IMG/VR virus record: IMGVR_UViG_3300024510_000011
Span: 1-21,239 of that record
Strand: one strand, 5' to 3'
Length of the DNA: 21,239 nt
Source of the DNA: a virus
How positions within the stretch are numbered: position 1 is the stretch's first letter; each line of letters starts with the position of its first letter. A program made the translations under genes and the position numbers. Under the pieces are notes generated by a model. It made no database searches and was not told the origin of the DNA. It saw only the letters and a program-made list of their open reading frames with translations. Of the stretch, positions 1-8,708 are shown in pieces.

Positions 1-536
1 ACGTCGTTTCCGTGCGCTGCACAGGGGCTGACGGTAGGGTTAGCGAGAACCAGGGCGCTGTAGACGTTTCTAGCCTGTCTGGAGAGCGTTTGGCTAATGC
101 CATCCTGAAAGCCACCACCAAAGCTATTCGCAGGTCTGTGCTTGCACATTGTGGACTAGGAATGATGGACGAGACTGAGGTCGAAACCATCCCGGAAGCC
201 AGGCGCACACCGATGGTTACTATCGAAGAGTCCAAGCCTACACAAGCGCCTGCTGGCATTGTGTTCATGGTTCCCGGCGCAAAGGATGCTTACGCCAAGT
301 ATGCCAATAACGAGGAATGGGTAGCTGGTTATCTGGATATGGCTGGCAAGATTGCTGGTAGCAAGAAGTTTTCTGCCGCCGAGAAAGAAGCCAAGCTCAA
401 TTCATTGACAGAAGTTAATAGCTTCATCATGGAAACAATCTCGGCAGAAAGCAAGGTGTTGTTTGAGGTTCTGGAGCGCGGTATCGCCAAAGTGATGGCC
501 GACATTAAGGGGGCTGGTGATGAGCCAAAACAATGA
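1..536 (+). CDS. RecT/Bet-like single-strand annealing recombinase, C-terminal part (5' truncated)
   Basis: The reading frame is already open at base 3 and runs to the TGA at 534-536, so the true start lies before the window; the GTG at position 12 is an internal valine. The segment around the motifs KATTKAIRR and CGLGMMDETEVETIP matches, from memory, a pattern found in phage annealing proteins of the RecT/Red-beta type, where a basic TKAxRR helix precedes a conserved CGLGxxDETE stretch. Such proteins pair complementary single strands during phage recombination and replication. The last 90 or so residues are helical and charged, with no recognised domain. It is followed at once by small early genes including an SSB-tail protein and a nuclease, which fits a DNA-metabolism operon. 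The annealing-protein assignment is family recognition, not proof; a conserved phage protein of unknown function is the alternative. Confidence 0.55.
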   Translation, partial: VVSVRCTGADGRVSENQGAVDVSSLSGERLANAILKATTKAIRRSVLAHCGLGMMDETEVETIPEARRTPMVTIEESKPTQAPAGIVFMVPGAKDAYAKYANNEEWVAGYLDMAGKIAGSKKFSAAEKEAKLNSLTEVNSFIMETISAESKVLFEVLERGIAKVMADIKGAGDEPKQ

Positions 537-723
537 AATACTCTCTTACATGGCAAAAGGCCGATCAATAACGCCAATGGATGCGCTAAAGAAGTTTGGC
601 TGCTTCCGGCTGGCATCCAGGATCAATGAATTACGCAATGATGGTCACAAGATTCACAAGATCATGAAAGAGCGTAACGGCAAACGGTTTGCATCCTACT
701 ATCTGATTGAGAGGGCAAAATGA
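520..723 (+). CDS. Small helix-turn-helix protein
   Basis: This 67-residue protein has the pattern SITPMDALKKFGCFRLASRI followed by NELRNDGHKI and GKRFASYYL. That is the arrangement of the phage helix-turn-helix family HTH_39: a first helix, a GCxRLAxRI recognition helix, then a wing ending in a YxL strand. It probably binds DNA, perhaps as an early regulator, but no target site is visible. A GTG at 517 is also in frame. I prefer the ATG at 520 because the AAGGGGG at 507-513 is well spaced from it. It overlaps the end of the recombinase gene by 17 bases and the next start by an ATGA junction, so it is part of the translationally coupled early operon. Confidence 0.75.
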   Translation: MSQNNEILSYMAKGRSITPMDALKKFGCFRLASRINELRNDGHKIHKIMKERNGKRFASYYLIERAK

Positions 724-923
724 AACTCAGGACTGTTAATATCCATTGGAATAAATATACCAACACATACACTGGCACAGTATGTGTTGGCAATGAACTT
801 GCCAGTCTTGATGTTACGTTGTCTATTGGCGATGCTCAGAAGATAGCTGACACTATTTCAGAGAAAATCAAAGAACTTGTTGGCGAATCTGTCAGCACTA
901 TTACCGACGAAATGAGGGCATGA
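720..923 (+). CDS. Small early protein of unknown function
   Basis: This 67-residue protein is not recognised. The first half looks like beta strands (TVNIHWNKYTNTYTGTVCV, then LASLDVTLSI), and the second half is a probable helix (DAQKIADTISEKIKELVGE). No cysteine pairs, membrane segment or catalytic motif is visible. Its ATG overlaps the previous stop as ATGA and is preceded by GAGAGGGC, a good ribosome binding site. The coupling and even reading frame argue that it is a real gene of the early operon. No function is proposed. Confidence 0.65.
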   Translation: MKLRTVNIHWNKYTNTYTGTVCVGNELASLDVTLSIGDAQKIADTISEKIKELVGESVSTITDEMRA

Positions 924-925
924 TT

Positions 926-1186
926 ATGGAACGAAAAGAAGGCACTGGAGTATTGTTGACCAACCAGCGGAAGAAAGGTGCCGGGCCGGACTGGAAGGGA
1001 GAAATGAAGGTAGAGCGAGCCTATGCTGCCGGTGAAACAATCAAGCTGGCAGGATGGACTAAGGAATCAAGCGTTGGCGTATTGATTAGCCTGAAAGAAG
1101 ATAACTGGCGTCCAGCCCAGGAAAACAATGGAAACGTCAATCCTATTCCTGCAAAGCGCATTGATGATGAAGATGTGCCGTTCTAA
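926..1186 (+). CDS. Small protein with SSB-like acidic C-terminal tip
   Basis: This 86-residue protein has a compact, probably beta-rich body (KGEMKVERAYAAGETIKLAG, then GVLISLKEDNW) and ends in RIDDEDVPF. The terminal DDEDVPF closely resembles the conserved C-terminal tip of bacterial single-stranded DNA-binding proteins (DDDIPF), through which SSB recruits partner enzymes. It sits between a putative annealing recombinase and a nuclease, so a role at ssDNA or in recruiting host repair proteins is a reasonable inference. It is much shorter than a typical SSB (about 150-180 aa), and an OB fold cannot be demonstrated by eye. Two ATGs are possible. The one at 920 overlaps the previous stop, but the one at 926 has GAGGG at a better distance and is chosen here. 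Confidence 0.7.
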   Translation: MERKEGTGVLLTNQRKKGAGPDWKGEMKVERAYAAGETIKLAGWTKESSVGVLISLKEDNWRPAQENNGNVNPIPAKRIDDEDVPF

Positions 1187-1548
1187 TGAGTAAGCTATCC
1201 CGACAACGCGGAGCAGGTTATGAGCGAGAGATTGCCGCCGAAATCTTTGAGGTCACAGGCCACAAGGTAAGGCGCAATCTTAACCAGTATCAGGTTAAAG
1301 ACGAAGGTGATCTGCTGCTAGGTCAGTTCCTTCTGGAGTGCAAGCGCCGCCGTAAGATAGCTGTGTACGAGTGGATGGAACAGGCAGAACGATCCTGCAA
1401 GCTGGATCAAACGCCCGTAGTAGTAATGCGGGCTGATGGAGAGAAATCGCTTGCAGTCATGCGCTGGCCTGATTTGCTGAAGTTAATCAATGGTGAGGTT
1501 TTGCCCCCGCAGTCGCAAGTGGAATCTGGCGCAATGCCGGATAGTTAG
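1186..1548 (+). CDS. PD-(D/E)XK family nuclease (Holliday-junction-resolvase-like)
   Basis: This 120-residue protein has the core of a PD-(D/E)XK nuclease: an N-terminal helix with GAGYERE (E13 and E15), then EGDLLLG (D42), then LLECKRRR (E51-x-K53), then a helix and the strand TPVVVMRAD. D42, E51 and K53 are the expected metal-binding and catalytic residues. The size and the N-terminal RGAGYERE helix resemble archaeal-type Hjc resolvases and small phage restriction-like endonucleases. It probably cuts branched DNA or otherwise processes replication or recombination intermediates; the substrate is inferred from family and neighbours. The start overlaps the previous stop as TAATG. The C-terminal 15 residues look like a loose tail. 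Confidence 0.75.
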   Translation: MSKLSRQRGAGYEREIAAEIFEVTGHKVRRNLNQYQVKDEGDLLLGQFLLECKRRRKIAVYEWMEQAERSCKLDQTPVVVMRADGEKSLAVMRWPDLLKLINGEVLPPQSQVESGAMPDS

Positions 1549-2876: not shown

Positions 2877-3137
2877 CTACCTACAATTCCATCTACGCAT
2901 TGATGCTCTTGCACGGCTTCCCTTTGGACTGGCTTTTGCGATAGGAGCCATACGAGCGCAGAAACTAGCCTTACGGCCAGCATCCTTCTTGGTCTTAGGA
3001 TTGGGCGCAGGAGCCTTCAGATTGCTCCCTGTTGCACGATTCATCTTAGCCCTACCCTTGGCAGTCAAGCCAGCGCCACGGCTTACAGGCAGCTTCTCGC
3101 CACGCCCAATGGATAGGCTTACAGACTTCTTAGGCAT
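2877..3137 (-). CDS. Small basic phage protein with SFCARM motif (DUF6321-like)
   Basis: This 86-residue protein contains GAGLTAKGRAKMNRATGSNL followed by KAPAPNPKTKKDAGRKASFC and a final RRWNC. I recognise this arrangement (GxGLTAKGRAKxNRATGSNLK, then KDAGRKxSFCARM, then ASxRRWxC) as a small phage family, DUF6321 to the best of my memory. I count 23 Lys/Arg against two acidic residues. Two conserved cysteines (60 and 85) are too few for a zinc finger in a monomer. I choose the ATG at 3137: AAGGA lies nine bases upstream and it overlaps the endolysin end by eight bases. The in-frame ATG at 3161 would intrude further. Molecular function is unknown. Confidence 0.75.
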   Translation of the reverse strand: MPKKSVSLSIGRGEKLPVSRGAGLTAKGRAKMNRATGSNLKAPAPNPKTKKDAGRKASFCARMAPIAKASPKGSRARASMRRWNCR

Positions 3138-3573
3138 AGGGTCTGGTTCCTTGCTTATCAATAATCAGCCTGGAATCTCTTGGCTGTGCTTCAGGCAGAC
3201 TAGGAACTGAGATATGAGTCCACGAATCGAACTCAAGGATGATCTGGTCAAACGGCACCTTCGCCGCAATACAGGCTTCTACTACTTCACGGGGCTTCAT
3301 GCCTGGCACCCGAATATCGGCTGCACAGCCAATACGATGCTGACTACTGTTCTTTGAGCCTACCGCATCGTTGACCTGCTTCGACCGGAATCCGCTGTTA
3401 ATCATCACCGGCTTACCGCCAACTGCCGTCTTGACCTGCTGAAGCAGGGAGGCCAATCGACGTAGGTTCTCGATCTCTTCCTCGTTCGGACTGTTATCCC
3501 ACCCATTACGTTGAGCCACCTCGGAGTGAGTCAGTTCTTCAAGGGTAAAGTTTGCTGATAACGGAAAGCTCAT
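3130..3573 (-). CDS. Peptidase M15A-type endolysin
   Basis: This 147-residue protein matches the M15A zinc peptidases (D,D- or L,D-carboxypeptidase/endopeptidase fold) used as phage endolysins. The N-terminus FTLEELTHSEVAQRNGWDN is typical of the family. SGFRSKQVN is followed by SSQHRIGCAADIRV and then SWTHISV. The expected zinc ligands are H79, D86 and H120. It should cleave peptide cross-links of peptidoglycan to release virions. There is no signal peptide, so export would depend on the holin encoded immediately upstream. The start overlaps the holin stop (ATGA). The length is normal for the family. Confidence 0.92.
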   Translation of the reverse strand: MSFPLSANFTLEELTHSEVAQRNGWDNSPNEEEIENLRRLASLLQQVKTAVGGKPVMINSGFRSKQVNDAVGSKNSSQHRIGCAADIRVPGMKPREVVEACIAAKVPFDQIILEFDSWTHISVPSLPEAQPRDSRLIIDKQGTRPYA

Positions 3574-3971
3574 TCTTTTGCCTTCTTCATGCCGATAATC
3601 TTTTCAAGCGTCCTGCCTCCGAAATAGAAGGACATAATCAGCATGCCCCACTGTCCCAGTAGTTCCACGTAATTGTTGTTCACCTCAATATCCCATGCCG
3701 ACATAAGACCAAAAGCGGTATAGGTAATTAGGATAAACACCAACGTCATAGGGCGGATGTTCTTGGACAGCCATGAATCCGATCCCATGTCAGCCTTTAG
3801 CCGTTCGGTCAGTTCATGCTGTTCAGTTACATCGGCGTTAAGTTGCGCCAGTTCACCATTTTGCTGCATCTCCAGCAGCTTCAGCTTGGCCTGTTCCGCA
3901 GCCTGTGCGTCAGGGAAGAACTTGTCGATCAGCTTTGCGCCAACGGATAAAAGGGCAGGAATCGGAATCAT
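3570..3971 (-). CDS. Holin, GTA/3TM type
   Basis: This 133-residue protein begins with an amphipathic stretch (IPALLSVGAKLIDKFFPDA) and continues with a coiled-coil-like charged helix (about residues 23-60). Then come SWLSKNIRPMTLVFILITYT and a second hydrophobic segment around GQWGMLIMSFYFGG. The WLSKNIRPMT motif before the first strong membrane helix is characteristic of the 3TM holin family found with gene-transfer-agent and phage lysis genes. It would make the membrane lesion that lets the following M15 peptidase reach the cell wall. It lies directly upstream of the endolysin with overlapping stop and start, three bases after the end of another membrane protein gene. Confidence 0.87.
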   Translation of the reverse strand: MIPIPALLSVGAKLIDKFFPDAQAAEQAKLKLLEMQQNGELAQLNADVTEQHELTERLKADMGSDSWLSKNIRPMTLVFILITYTAFGLMSAWDIEVNNNYVELLGQWGMLIMSFYFGGRTLEKIIGMKKAKE

Positions 3972-3973
3972 TT

Positions 3974-4336
3974 TTACCTCGCCGTGTGAACTTCGCTGTC
4001 ACCTTTCTTGACTACGACCTTATCGCTTTCCACAGATACAGACATGGGATCGCGGTCAGCCATGCGGTCAAGACGTTCAATGAGTTGCTTCATGACCTCA
4101 AACTCAGGCTTATCCTGCTTAGGGGTAGCGCCAGCGATGCCGTTCATCATGGATATCAAAGCGGTCAACGAAGCACCAAGCAGACCCATTACTGCGGCCA
4201 TCTTGGATTCTTCCAGCACAATCGAAGCGCCGACACCTACGCAGACAATCAATGTAATATAAAACAGCCCTTGCTTACCGATAGTCTTACCGGCAACTTC
4301 CTTGGCAGATTCCGGCTGAATAACTGGCTCGTTCAT
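3974..4336 (-). CDS. Two-TM membrane protein of the lysis cassette
   Basis: This 120-residue protein has a short charged N-terminus. Two closely spaced hydrophobic segments follow (about 22-40, FYITLIVCVGVGASIVL, and 46-68, MAAVMGLLGASLTALISMM), then a charged, probably coiled-coil C-terminal tail with KPEFEVMKQLIERLDRM. It lies between a 59-residue membrane protein and the holin, overlapping the former by ATGA. Position and topology suggest a second holin, an antiholin or a pinholin-type partner. I see no lipobox or periplasmic coiled coil that would identify a spanin. The function is inferred from location only. Confidence 0.7.
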   Translation of the reverse strand: MNEPVIQPESAKEVAGKTIGKQGLFYITLIVCVGVGASIVLEESKMAAVMGLLGASLTALISMMNGIAGATPKQDKPEFEVMKQLIERLDRMADRDPMSVSVESDKVVVKKGDSEVHTAR

Positions 4337-6003: not shown

Positions 6004-6182
6004 CGCTCCATCTTCCGGCTTCCACGTTTGTTACGCTTGAATCTGACTCCCGCTGGCATACGATCCATAGCCTTAAACGGTGAACGGAATGATTCCGCCT
6101 CACCCTCAGACGAACGTGATTTCCCCCGCTTCTCTCGGCTAAGGGAAATCTTGGCCTCATCCGTCATCATATCGTAGTCCAT
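6000..6182 (-). CDS. 60-residue basic protein of unknown function
   Basis: The ATG at 6180-6182 (minus) follows AGGAAAGG at good spacing and overlaps the previous stop as TAATG; the TGA overlaps the next ATG. The product has an acidic first decapeptide and a strongly basic remainder (SREKRGKSRSSEGEAESFRS, then RFKRNKRGSRKMER). It is probably disordered. No domain is recognised. Evidence for the gene is its signals and coupling rather than any homology. Confidence 0.55.
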   Translation of the reverse strand: MDYDMMTDEAKISLSREKRGKSRSSEGEAESFRSPFKAMDRMPAGVRFKRNKRGSRKMER

Positions 6183-6328
6183 TACCGCTTTCCTTTCCTC
6201 ATTTTCCTGGCAGTACGTGCAGTACTCAGGGCAATGGCAATAGCCTGTTTCTGCGGCTTGCCACGCTTCATTTCCTTGGAAATATTCTTGCTTACAGATT
6301 CCTTACTGTAACCTTTAATCAAGGGCAT
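6182..6328 (-). CDS. 48-residue basic mini-protein with QKQAIAIAL motif (DUF6496-like)
   Basis: The ATG at 6328 is preceded by AAAGGACTGAAA, a strong ribosome binding site, and the gene overlaps the end of the 797-residue gene by 14 bases. The product MPLIKGYSKESVSKNISKEM continues to PQKQAIAIALSTART. The (K/R)QAIAIALSxAR helix is the hallmark of small basic phage proteins in or near DUF6496. I count 15 Lys/Arg against two acidic residues. The function is unknown. A longer in-frame start at 6370 is not supported, because it has no comparable ribosome binding site and lies deeper in the upstream gene. Confidence 0.72.
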   Translation of the reverse strand: MPLIKGYSKESVSKNISKEMKRGKPQKQAIAIALSTARTARKMRKGKR

Positions 6329-8708
6329 TTTCAGTCCTTTCAGGGGTTTCAACGCCAAGCTGAGTTCCAACTGCCTGCCGGATCATCTTAGCAATCATGC
6401 GTTCCTGTTCTTGAACGGGCTTGCTCATTACCTGCTTTAGCTTTTGAGGATCAGTAACAATATCGCTAACGGCTTTTCTGATATTTTGAGAATACATGCG
6501 GTATCTCTCGCTGGCTAACGCTCCAGCCGCGACACCACCTAATGCACCGCCAACGCCACCAAGGTCAGGGAAATCAACTCCAGCCATCTTTGCCCCGCCA
6601 CCAAGTGCCGCCAGCATCCCGCCAGTAACAGCGCCGCCAATCTTCATCTTTCCGACTTCTTCGGAAATCAATCTAGTCAATTCCCTCTCGCTACTTTCTG
6701 CGCCAGGTATTTGCGAAGCCCTTGAAACCGCTCTCATTACGCCTTCCTGAACGGCTGTGATCTGTCTTACAGCATCATCAATGAATTTCTGTTCATCCGG
6801 CGTGTAAAGGCCGCTTGCCTTCATTGCAGGCTGTATTTTGTCTCGGTATGTGCGCTCAAGACCGCCAGCAGGCTCGGTGCCAATAATGTCTCTGATGCCC
6901 TGCTGGAATACCTGCTTACCTTCAGGGGTTTTGCCTAGCGTTCTTCCAGCAGCTTCCATAGCCTGAGAACCGCCGGTCTTTACTAGCGCCTTAAATGCGT
7001 CTGCCTGCTCTTGCTGGCCTCGACCAAGCTCAAATCTACCGGCACGTTCTTCAGTTCTAGCGGCAATCTTTTGTTGAACACCTTGCTCTTGAGCCAATTT
7101 CTTTGCATATCGAGAAAAGTTTGATTTAAGAGCAGGAAATTCAGATAACCAGCCTTGATTTGCCCGAATAAAAGCATCAATTTGCGCTGGACTTTTTCCT
7201 AGCAACTGTTGGCTCATGTAGTTCCTAGCCAAAATTTCTGTTTTTGTTCTTTCTAATCCAGTTAATTCAATAAAATCCCGTACAGTTTTAGGACTGGAAA
7301 ATATGGCTTTTGGAACCGCCAACGGATCAGTTTTAAATTCTCCAGTTTCGATCCTCTGTTTACCAAGAATTTTTTGTCCAAAATCCGTAGAGAACCTGTT
7401 AATCGGCTCTGATGCTTTTTGATAATCACGTAGATATTTTTCAAAAGCGCCGCCAGTCACCGTCCTGGTTTCCGCATCAAACGTGCCTCCAGTAAACTCT
7501 TTCATCACGTTTTCTACAAGCGTCTTTAAACGTCCAGCCTGTTGCTGTCCAAGCGCAGCATACCCTTCAGCCGGAACGCCACCAGCAGCATCACCAAGTT
7601 CACGGCGAAGGTTCTCTAGTTTCTGGAATGAAACGCCAATCTTCTTTGTTTCTCCAGTCGTAGGGTCAAAAATAATGCCGGTAAGCTCTCGTCTTACTTT
7701 ATCAATCGCGCCAGAAAGATCGCCTGTAGCTATTGGCAGCTTTGTTTGCGGGTCAACCTTCATGGCCTTCAGAGCCATTTCAGCGTCTTTAAAGGACTCT
7801 GTGTTGTTGATCCTAGAGCCAGCAACTTCGGCCTCTCTAGCCATATTAAAGGCAGCGTCTTTATTGGTTTTTACCGCAGCCTGACGAGCAGCTTTAAGTT
7901 CATCAAGCCTGGAGTTAATTAACTGTCTAGCTTCTTCGCCAATCTCAGTTTCTGACCTCGGTGCGCTAATATTTGCCAGCCGTTGCTCAGATGCCTGCGC
8001 TAACCTTTCCCCAAGTTCTTTGCCGCCAGCACGGATGCCACGCGCTTCGGTTCCAAGAATCCTTGATATTTCAGTAACGTCAACAGGTTCAGCGGAAGGT
8101 GCGCCACGCAAACGCTCTTGCATCTGTCTCATTACAGAAGTTCGTTTTTCAGCGGCTTCAGGTAATGCCGTGATAGCTTCTGGCTCTAATCTGCGGGTTA
8201 CTCGCTCCGCCGCCCTCTCAACGCCGCCAGGCATCAATGGCCGCAAGGCGCGGCCTATTTGACGCGCCGCACCAAATGGCAGTTCAGCAGCCATGCCAGC
8301 GGCAAACTCAGCGCCCATCCTGCCAAGTCTTGATGTATCTTCTGGCAATACATTGCTTAACGCTTGTGATGCAGCACCTCCGGCAGCGGCCCCGCCACCG
8401 CGCAACAAAAGTTCTGCACCAGTCTTAGGTATAAACAAATCAGCAGCCCTAGCCGCATACGGTGCAAGCCTTCCGCCTTTTGTTGCTAACTGAGCGGCTC
8501 TTGCCGCGCCACCCAATACAGGCACGGCACCAGCAGACTGCAAAGCAGACTCAAATACTGAAGGCTTTTCAGGCGTTGGCCGGGCTGCGGCAGCAGCTTT
8601 CATTTCCGGCGTAAAACCAGGCTGCTCCGTTGGAATTTGCTCAACTAAAGATTTGTCGGGAACAAACGATCCCTTTTTTTCTTCAGGTTGGTCAGCAACA
8701 AAAGCCAT
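6315..8708 (-). CDS. Large helical protein, candidate internal virion/DNA-ejection protein
   Basis: This 797-residue protein is mostly helical, with many Ala, Arg, Glu and Gln. Two Gly/Ala-rich hydrophobic stretches could insert into membranes: about 97-116 (LLLRGGGAAAGGAASQALS) and about 690-735 (KIGGAVTGGMLAALGGG, then GGVGGALGGVAAGAL). The first 40 residues are charged and probably disordered. Large proteins of this build, encoded after the tail genes of short-tailed phages, are typically internal core proteins that leave the capsid with the DNA and form a trans-envelope channel. No lysozyme or transglycosylase motif was recognised. It is the last of four consecutive candidates of this type. 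The assignment rests on context and composition. Confidence 0.6.
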   Translation of the reverse strand: MAFVADQPEEKKGSFVPDKSLVEQIPTEQPGFTPEMKAAAAARPTPEKPSVFESALQSAGAVPVLGGAARAAQLATKGGRLAPYAARAADLFIPKTGAELLLRGGGAAAGGAASQALSNVLPEDTSRLGRMGAEFAAGMAAELPFGAARQIGRALRPLMPGGVERAAERVTRRLEPEAITALPEAAEKRTSVMRQMQERLRGAPSAEPVDVTEISRILGTEARGIRAGGKELGERLAQASEQRLANISAPRSETEIGEEARQLINSRLDELKAARQAAVKTNKDAAFNMAREAEVAGSRINNTESFKDAEMALKAMKVDPQTKLPIATGDLSGAIDKVRRELTGIIFDPTTGETKKIGVSFQKLENLRRELGDAAGGVPAEGYAALGQQQAGRLKTLVENVMKEFTGGTFDAETRTVTGGAFEKYLRDYQKASEPINRFSTDFGQKILGKQRIETGEFKTDPLAVPKAIFSSPKTVRDFIELTGLERTKTEILARNYMSQQLLGKSPAQIDAFIRANQGWLSEFPALKSNFSRYAKKLAQEQGVQQKIAARTEERAGRFELGRGQQEQADAFKALVKTGGSQAMEAAGRTLGKTPEGKQVFQQGIRDIIGTEPAGGLERTYRDKIQPAMKASGLYTPDEQKFIDDAVRQITAVQEGVMRAVSRASQIPGAESSERELTRLISEEVGKMKIGGAVTGGMLAALGGGAKMAGVDFPDLGGVGGALGGVAAGALASERYRMYSQNIRKAVSDIVTDPQKLKQVMSKPVQEQERMIAKMIRQAVGTQLGVETPERTENALD

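Follow-up and report, generated by a model that had tools for sequence, protein, structure and literature searches.

A small phage protein with an SSB-type C-terminal tip: a probable minimal single-stranded DNA-binding protein within a recombination block

The gene discussed here, found in a 21.2-kb virus record (the window, that is the whole stretch of DNA that was analysed, with 126 listed ORFs), raises the question of what so small a protein does with a C-terminal end resembling that of the bacterial single-stranded DNA-binding protein (SSB). The ORF that the initial annotation had placed at positions 926–1186 (86 aa) is present, and DDEDVPF does form the last seven residues of its translation. 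With respect to the start site, a GAGG sequence at 914–917 lies 8 nt before the ATG at 926 and 2 nt before an alternative ATG at 920, and the ATG equivalent to the latter is absent in the close relative L008. From the spacing and from L008, a start at 926 is at least as likely, and the earlier choice is reasonable. Also noticed nearby were an annealing recombinase, which the window edge truncates, and a PD-(D/E)XK protein, and both are there. The features of the locus are the following.

3–536, plus strand: single-strand annealing protein (SSAP), C-terminal part (about 60%), with the start outside the window
517–723, plus strand: winged helix-turn-helix protein HTH_39, 68 aa (Pfam PF14090, E 6e-12)
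720–923, plus strand: 67-aa protein from the ORF list, overlapping the first ATG of the next gene by 4 bases
920–1186, plus strand: small SSB-like protein with 88 aa (86 aa when translation begins at 926)
941–1108, plus strand: its conserved body, residues 8–63 (AlphaFold model, with the same strands in the relative L121)
1109–1162, plus strand: its flexible linker, residues 64–81 (low model confidence, pLDDT about 50)
1163–1183, plus strand: its SSB-type C-terminal tip, DDEDVPF (translation, conservation and codon use)
1186–1548, plus strand: PD-(D/E)XK nuclease, grouped with the RusA-like Holliday junction resolvases

Its profile matches place the protein in a large phage family, PHROG 18154/7364. 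In a full-length profile search it matches phrog_18154, ‘single strand DNA binding protein’, with E 1.1e-5, and the match persists with the tail cut off (residues 1–63 alone, E 1.9e-5). An annotation resting on the tail only was considered and is rejected at the phrog_18154 level, given that the body alone still matches. The database ‘ssDNA binding’ label may itself be based on the tail; the family profile reaches solved bacterial SSBs over C-terminal residues only (E 0.7), and the annotation of the Vibrio phage VpV262 protein was based on ‘C-terminus’ similarity. PHROG 18154 is matched by all 26 of the family members sampled, and at least 564 relatives were confirmed in IMG/VR using a wider alignment. 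Relatives are also encoded by the cultured Erwinia phage Faunus, Vibrio phages VpV262 and VP2 and Methylophilales phage MEP301, as well as by the genome of phage C72C1, and they are mostly annotated as SSB, so that the window protein is of a known kind. Scans of genome contigs with two family alignments confirmed no relative and a plasmid search found none; thus, at the search sensitivity used, the family looks phage-bound. Three residues of the body, P23, G27 and W46, are invariant across very diverse phages. Matches of the window protein to Pfam DUF7617 (E 0.016) and to the NCBIfam SSB model (E 0.023) are below cut-off and were ignored. DUF736 (PF05284) was matched, also below cut-off (E 0.0027–0.1), by 9 of 26 relatives and not by the window protein, and this link was set aside as too weak to use.

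The number of bodies per protein varies in two relatives. In MW202825 (L016:3597–3770 and 3766–3999) a second body lacking the tip lies upstream of the tip-bearing copy and overlaps it. In VP2 (L064:3758–4231) a chain of 158 aa contains two body domains and a single tip, and its gene adjoins those of DNA polymerase I and primase.

That the tip arose by accident on an unrelated small phage protein has to be considered, short motifs being liable to occur by chance. Under a base-composition model in which a comparable tip was defined as an [ILVM]PF end with at least 3 acidic residues among the preceding 4, the probability is 5.5e-7 per ORF, that is about 7e-5 expected over the 126 listed ORFs. 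In a set of 97 distinct complete relatives, the C-terminus is -PF in 91 and -PFN in a further 2, and the full acidic-hydrophobic-PF tip is kept in 85, a count that ranking of relatives by similarity may have raised by favouring tip-bearing ones, although the DNA search patterns were placed in the body. Relatives lacking an acidic-aromatic tip, which the initial annotation had named as an observation that would speak against it, are not the rule. The codons that specify the tip differ from one relative to another (four Pro codons, both Phe codons and three stops are used) while the residues are fixed, which argues for selection on the peptide itself. On conservation, codon variety and low expected count, the accidental origin is rejected as vanishingly improbable.

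Some tips depart from the common form. The SSB tip of L002 is one residue longer (IPFN). In L053:4004–4264 and L057:3168–3428 an acidic-Trp ending (KDEWDI and KEEWDI, respectively) replaces the PF tip, in proteins whose loop between strands 2 and 3 is also longer; these endings are possibly a variant of the tip matched to another host.

The linker that precedes the tip varies in length across relatives, is rich in P, Q, S, T, A, G and N, and is near neutral, whereas the body is basic, with a net charge of about +3 in the window protein and a mean of +2 in the mildly basic bodies of the relatives. The family has, in other words, the layout of SSB: basic body, flexible linker and acidic tip.

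Such a tip would also suit a protein that displays it to the host partners of SSB (RecQ, RecO, PriA, ExoI, RecG and polymerase chi), whether to block them or to draw them to phage DNA, with no need to bind ssDNA. The SSB tip alone suffices to bind many host proteins, and that of the window protein closely resembles it. However, the body is conserved along with the tip across very diverse phages, down to the three invariant residues; the gene is found in recombination and replication modules beside SSAPs and not among host-takeover genes; and the two bodies per tip of VP2 and the extra tip-less body of MW202825 fit DNA binding better than tip display. A role as decoy or recruiter of host repair proteins, as proposed in the initial annotation, is thus regarded as unlikely, and in the closest analogue that has been tested the tip serves the phage's own annealing protein (PMC5928155). 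The other half of that proposal, a minimal phage ssDNA binder, is the better supported one, with a body that matches phrog_18154, a location in recombination modules and a tip that is kept, except for the OB fold that was expected of it.

The body was modelled with AlphaFold from 76 family sequences. Four antiparallel strands are predicted (residues 10–14, 25–31, 39–49 and 54–60); the pLDDT is near 90 in the core, and the tail is disordered. The same four strands are found in a second model, that of L121. Neither model, at the moderate confidence that a pTM of about 0.5 indicates, contains a helix or a fifth strand, so that the OB barrel suggested earlier is unsupported. Sequence searches of the PDB gave nothing useful. 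Foldseek and VIA-align comparisons with the PDB gave no clear fold, OB-fold SSBs not being among clear matches. Borrelia Pur-alpha, whose fold is known for nucleic-acid binding, tops both rankings with weak scores (Z 3.8, 3.7 Å over 51 residues; Z 4.7, 3.6 Å over 50), and a PC4 homologue of phage T5 is also weakly matched (Z 3.9), but unrelated chains of the WD40 type, DDB1 among them, score as well as these in the second list. The PUR/PC4-type fold consists of a four-stranded curved sheet plus a helix; the models contain no helix. Foldseek hits among viral models are mainly small phage proteins, plus the SSB of Vibrio phage JSF9. The structural conclusion is therefore limited to a predicted four-stranded antiparallel sheet.

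The surroundings of the gene provide further information. In the window the order is annealing protein, winged helix protein, 67-aa protein, SSB-like protein and nuclease, with overlaps of a few bases; the nuclease ATG overlaps the stop codon of the SSB-like gene (TAATG). The annealing protein, by its sequence a divergent one, is 93.7% identical to residues 101–274 of the full-length ORF of L002 and is laid out as a Rad52-like core followed by a helical-looking C-terminal region. Its homologue in L023 matches Pfam Rad52_Rad22 just below cut-off (E 8e-4), and the C-terminal region is 32% identical (46 bits, in a very small database) to that of the RecT-type annealing protein that fills the same slot in sister phages (L031). 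The gene for HTH_39 between those of the annealing protein and the SSB is conserved in L002, L005, L008, L023 and L031, and its product may belong to the recombination unit. The 67-aa protein has no significant family in Pfam or PHROG profile searches. The nuclease matches PDDEXK_15 (Pfam, E 7.6e-8) and phrog_244 (E 1.5e-20), and a true RusA occupies its slot in L031 and L015.

Directly upstream, full-length relatives of the locus encode an annealing protein of 274 aa and an exonuclease of the RecE-like (YqaJ) type. In a survey of 108 ORFs just upstream of the gene at 61 loci, 32 Erf-like and 6 Sak SSAPs were counted, and the exonucleases numbered 17 of the RecE-like type and 16 from another family; a Sak protein is also the neighbour in C72C1. 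Downstream ORFs at related loci include helicases, primases and NinB/Orf, while the family protein lies beside DNA polymerase, helicase and primase in VP2 and VpV262 and beside a DprA-like mediator in Faunus. From this variety (Erf, Sak, RecT or Rad52-like on one side, PD-(D/E)XK or RusA on the other), it appears that the small protein stays and that the annealing and resolving partners are swapped.

A constant position next to SSAP and exonuclease genes, and structure matches in which a clear nucleic-acid fold is absent, are also what would be expected of a recombinase adaptor, with the body binding the annealing protein or the exonuclease, the tip binding host SSB partners or the replisome, and no binding of ssDNA. 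Against such a role, one and the same body occurs together with SSAP families that are unrelated (Erf, Sak, RecT and Rad52-like) and also at loci with DNA polymerase, helicase or primase as the listed neighbours, so that a common ligand such as ssDNA is a simpler explanation than one protein partner, and we consider the adaptor quite unlikely.

Several other elements were observed around the block. In L002, ORFs that, on reading their sequences, resemble HNH homing endonucleases lie directly 3′ of the SSB-like gene and of the PD-(D/E)XK gene (L002:5314–5748 and L002:6165–6629). In the window, positions 1604–2341 encode a glycosyltransferase-like protein (phrog_1574, E 2e-48; weak Anp1), whose gene follows that of the nuclease in several relatives, at times behind an inserted gene. 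On the minus strand, a GC-rich hairpin with a T run after it (2484–2508, terminator-like) separates the plus-strand recombination block from the leftward genes of the remaining window, among which genes for very small and strongly basic proteins are clustered (2544–2690, 2687–2839, 2877–3161 and 6182–6370, minus strand). RNA families or tRNAs were not found in the window.

For the window protein, its place in the family, the conservation of the tip, the coupling of the genes and the association with its neighbours are direct observations. On the body-only match to phrog_18154, the selected tip, the SSAP and exonuclease neighbours and the precedent of the SSB of phage HK620, the protein is probably a minimal phage ssDNA-binding protein of PHROG 18154/7364 that, by analogy with the latter, would use its tip to load the annealing protein on resected DNA. 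The basic, four-stranded body of approximately 56 residues would most likely bind ssDNA, and may do so as a dimer or higher oligomer. In the course of recombination and replication of the phage, DNA would be resected by a RecE/YqaJ-type exonuclease, which we infer for this phage from its relatives, the gene being outside the window, and the small protein would coat the resected 3′ strand. The acidic-Val-Pro-Phe tip would then dock on the annealing protein, its putative partner, probably at the conserved C-terminal region of the latter, and so load it; the resulting joints would be cut by the neighbouring PD-(D/E)XK/RusA-type nuclease. A broader proposal, which can be put forward only tentatively, is that the family represents a non-OB class of ‘mini-SSB’, with a four-stranded sheet of approximately 60 residues, possibly PUR/PC4-like after dimerization, on which the SSB tip was acquired convergently, and which would act as the fixed partner of swapped annealing proteins (Erf, Sak, RecT, Rad52-like) and resolvases (RusA, PD-(D/E)XK).

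If the minimal-SSB reading is right, an abundant family would be the phages' own SSB, with one of the smallest ssDNA-binding bodies and with a docking tag that is read by annealing proteins. Compact pairs of SSB and annealing protein could then be of use for recombineering where the SSB tip limits portability between hosts. The apparently non-OB body is what makes the protein of interest, and the same reading, if right, would also settle whether ssDNA binding and the SSB tip arose on a non-OB scaffold.

Among known systems, the nearest are the members of the family in cultured and sequenced phages (VpV262 ORF24, VP2 p29, Faunus gp13 and C72C1 CDS0047), which have in common with the window protein the body profile, the acidic-x-PF tip and the type of neighbourhood. 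The window lineage diverges from them (about 30–45% identity), has a loop between the second and third strands that is 5 residues longer (VERAYAAGE) and, unlike them, adjoins an annealing protein with no PHROG match. A literature search found no biochemical study of family members and no paper on the small phage SSBs of PHROG 18154/7364; the closest report was a phage genome paper that describes the same kind of module (PMC8451122).

Canonical bacterial SSB (PF00436) shares the design of linker and C-terminal tip, but the window protein, with a body about half the size, as the initial annotation had remarked in calling it far shorter, is predicted to have four strands and no OB barrel. PF00436 did not match the window protein in a Pfam scan, nor did it match anything in the window and ten related records, in a search in which the control genomes gave a signal. 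PF05037 (DUF669) likewise left the window protein unmatched in the Pfam scan and gave nothing over cut-off in the 11 records, with the control genomes silent too. In 7 carrier phage genomes deposited as complete, no PF00436, DUF669 or Enc34 SSB was found over cut-off, the absence of the last two weighing less because the control genomes responded for PF00436 only. The SSB of Enterobacter phage Enc34 (PF10991) and the lactococcal phage proteins (Orf14 of bIL67 and Orf34 of p2) are phage ssDNA-binding proteins whose relationship to bacterial SSB is only remote, and are of the OB-fold type; the window protein does not match them in sequence, nor clearly in fold. For bIL67 SSB, binding to ssDNA was shown and an OB-fold model is available (PMC3208561).

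The functional precedent comes from HK620, although its SSB, of the DUF669 type, belongs to a different and larger protein family. The 21.3 kDa monomer eluted at approximately 95 kDa and was proposed to be a tetramer; it is encoded beside the annealing protein Sak4, which it stimulates and with which it interacts on ssDNA only (PMC5928155). Removal of its last 6 residues lowered Sak4 recombineering 10-fold and abolished the loading of Sak4 on SSB-covered ssDNA (PMC5928155). In HK620, a tail of the PPF type is needed for the SSB to load the annealing protein encoded beside it.
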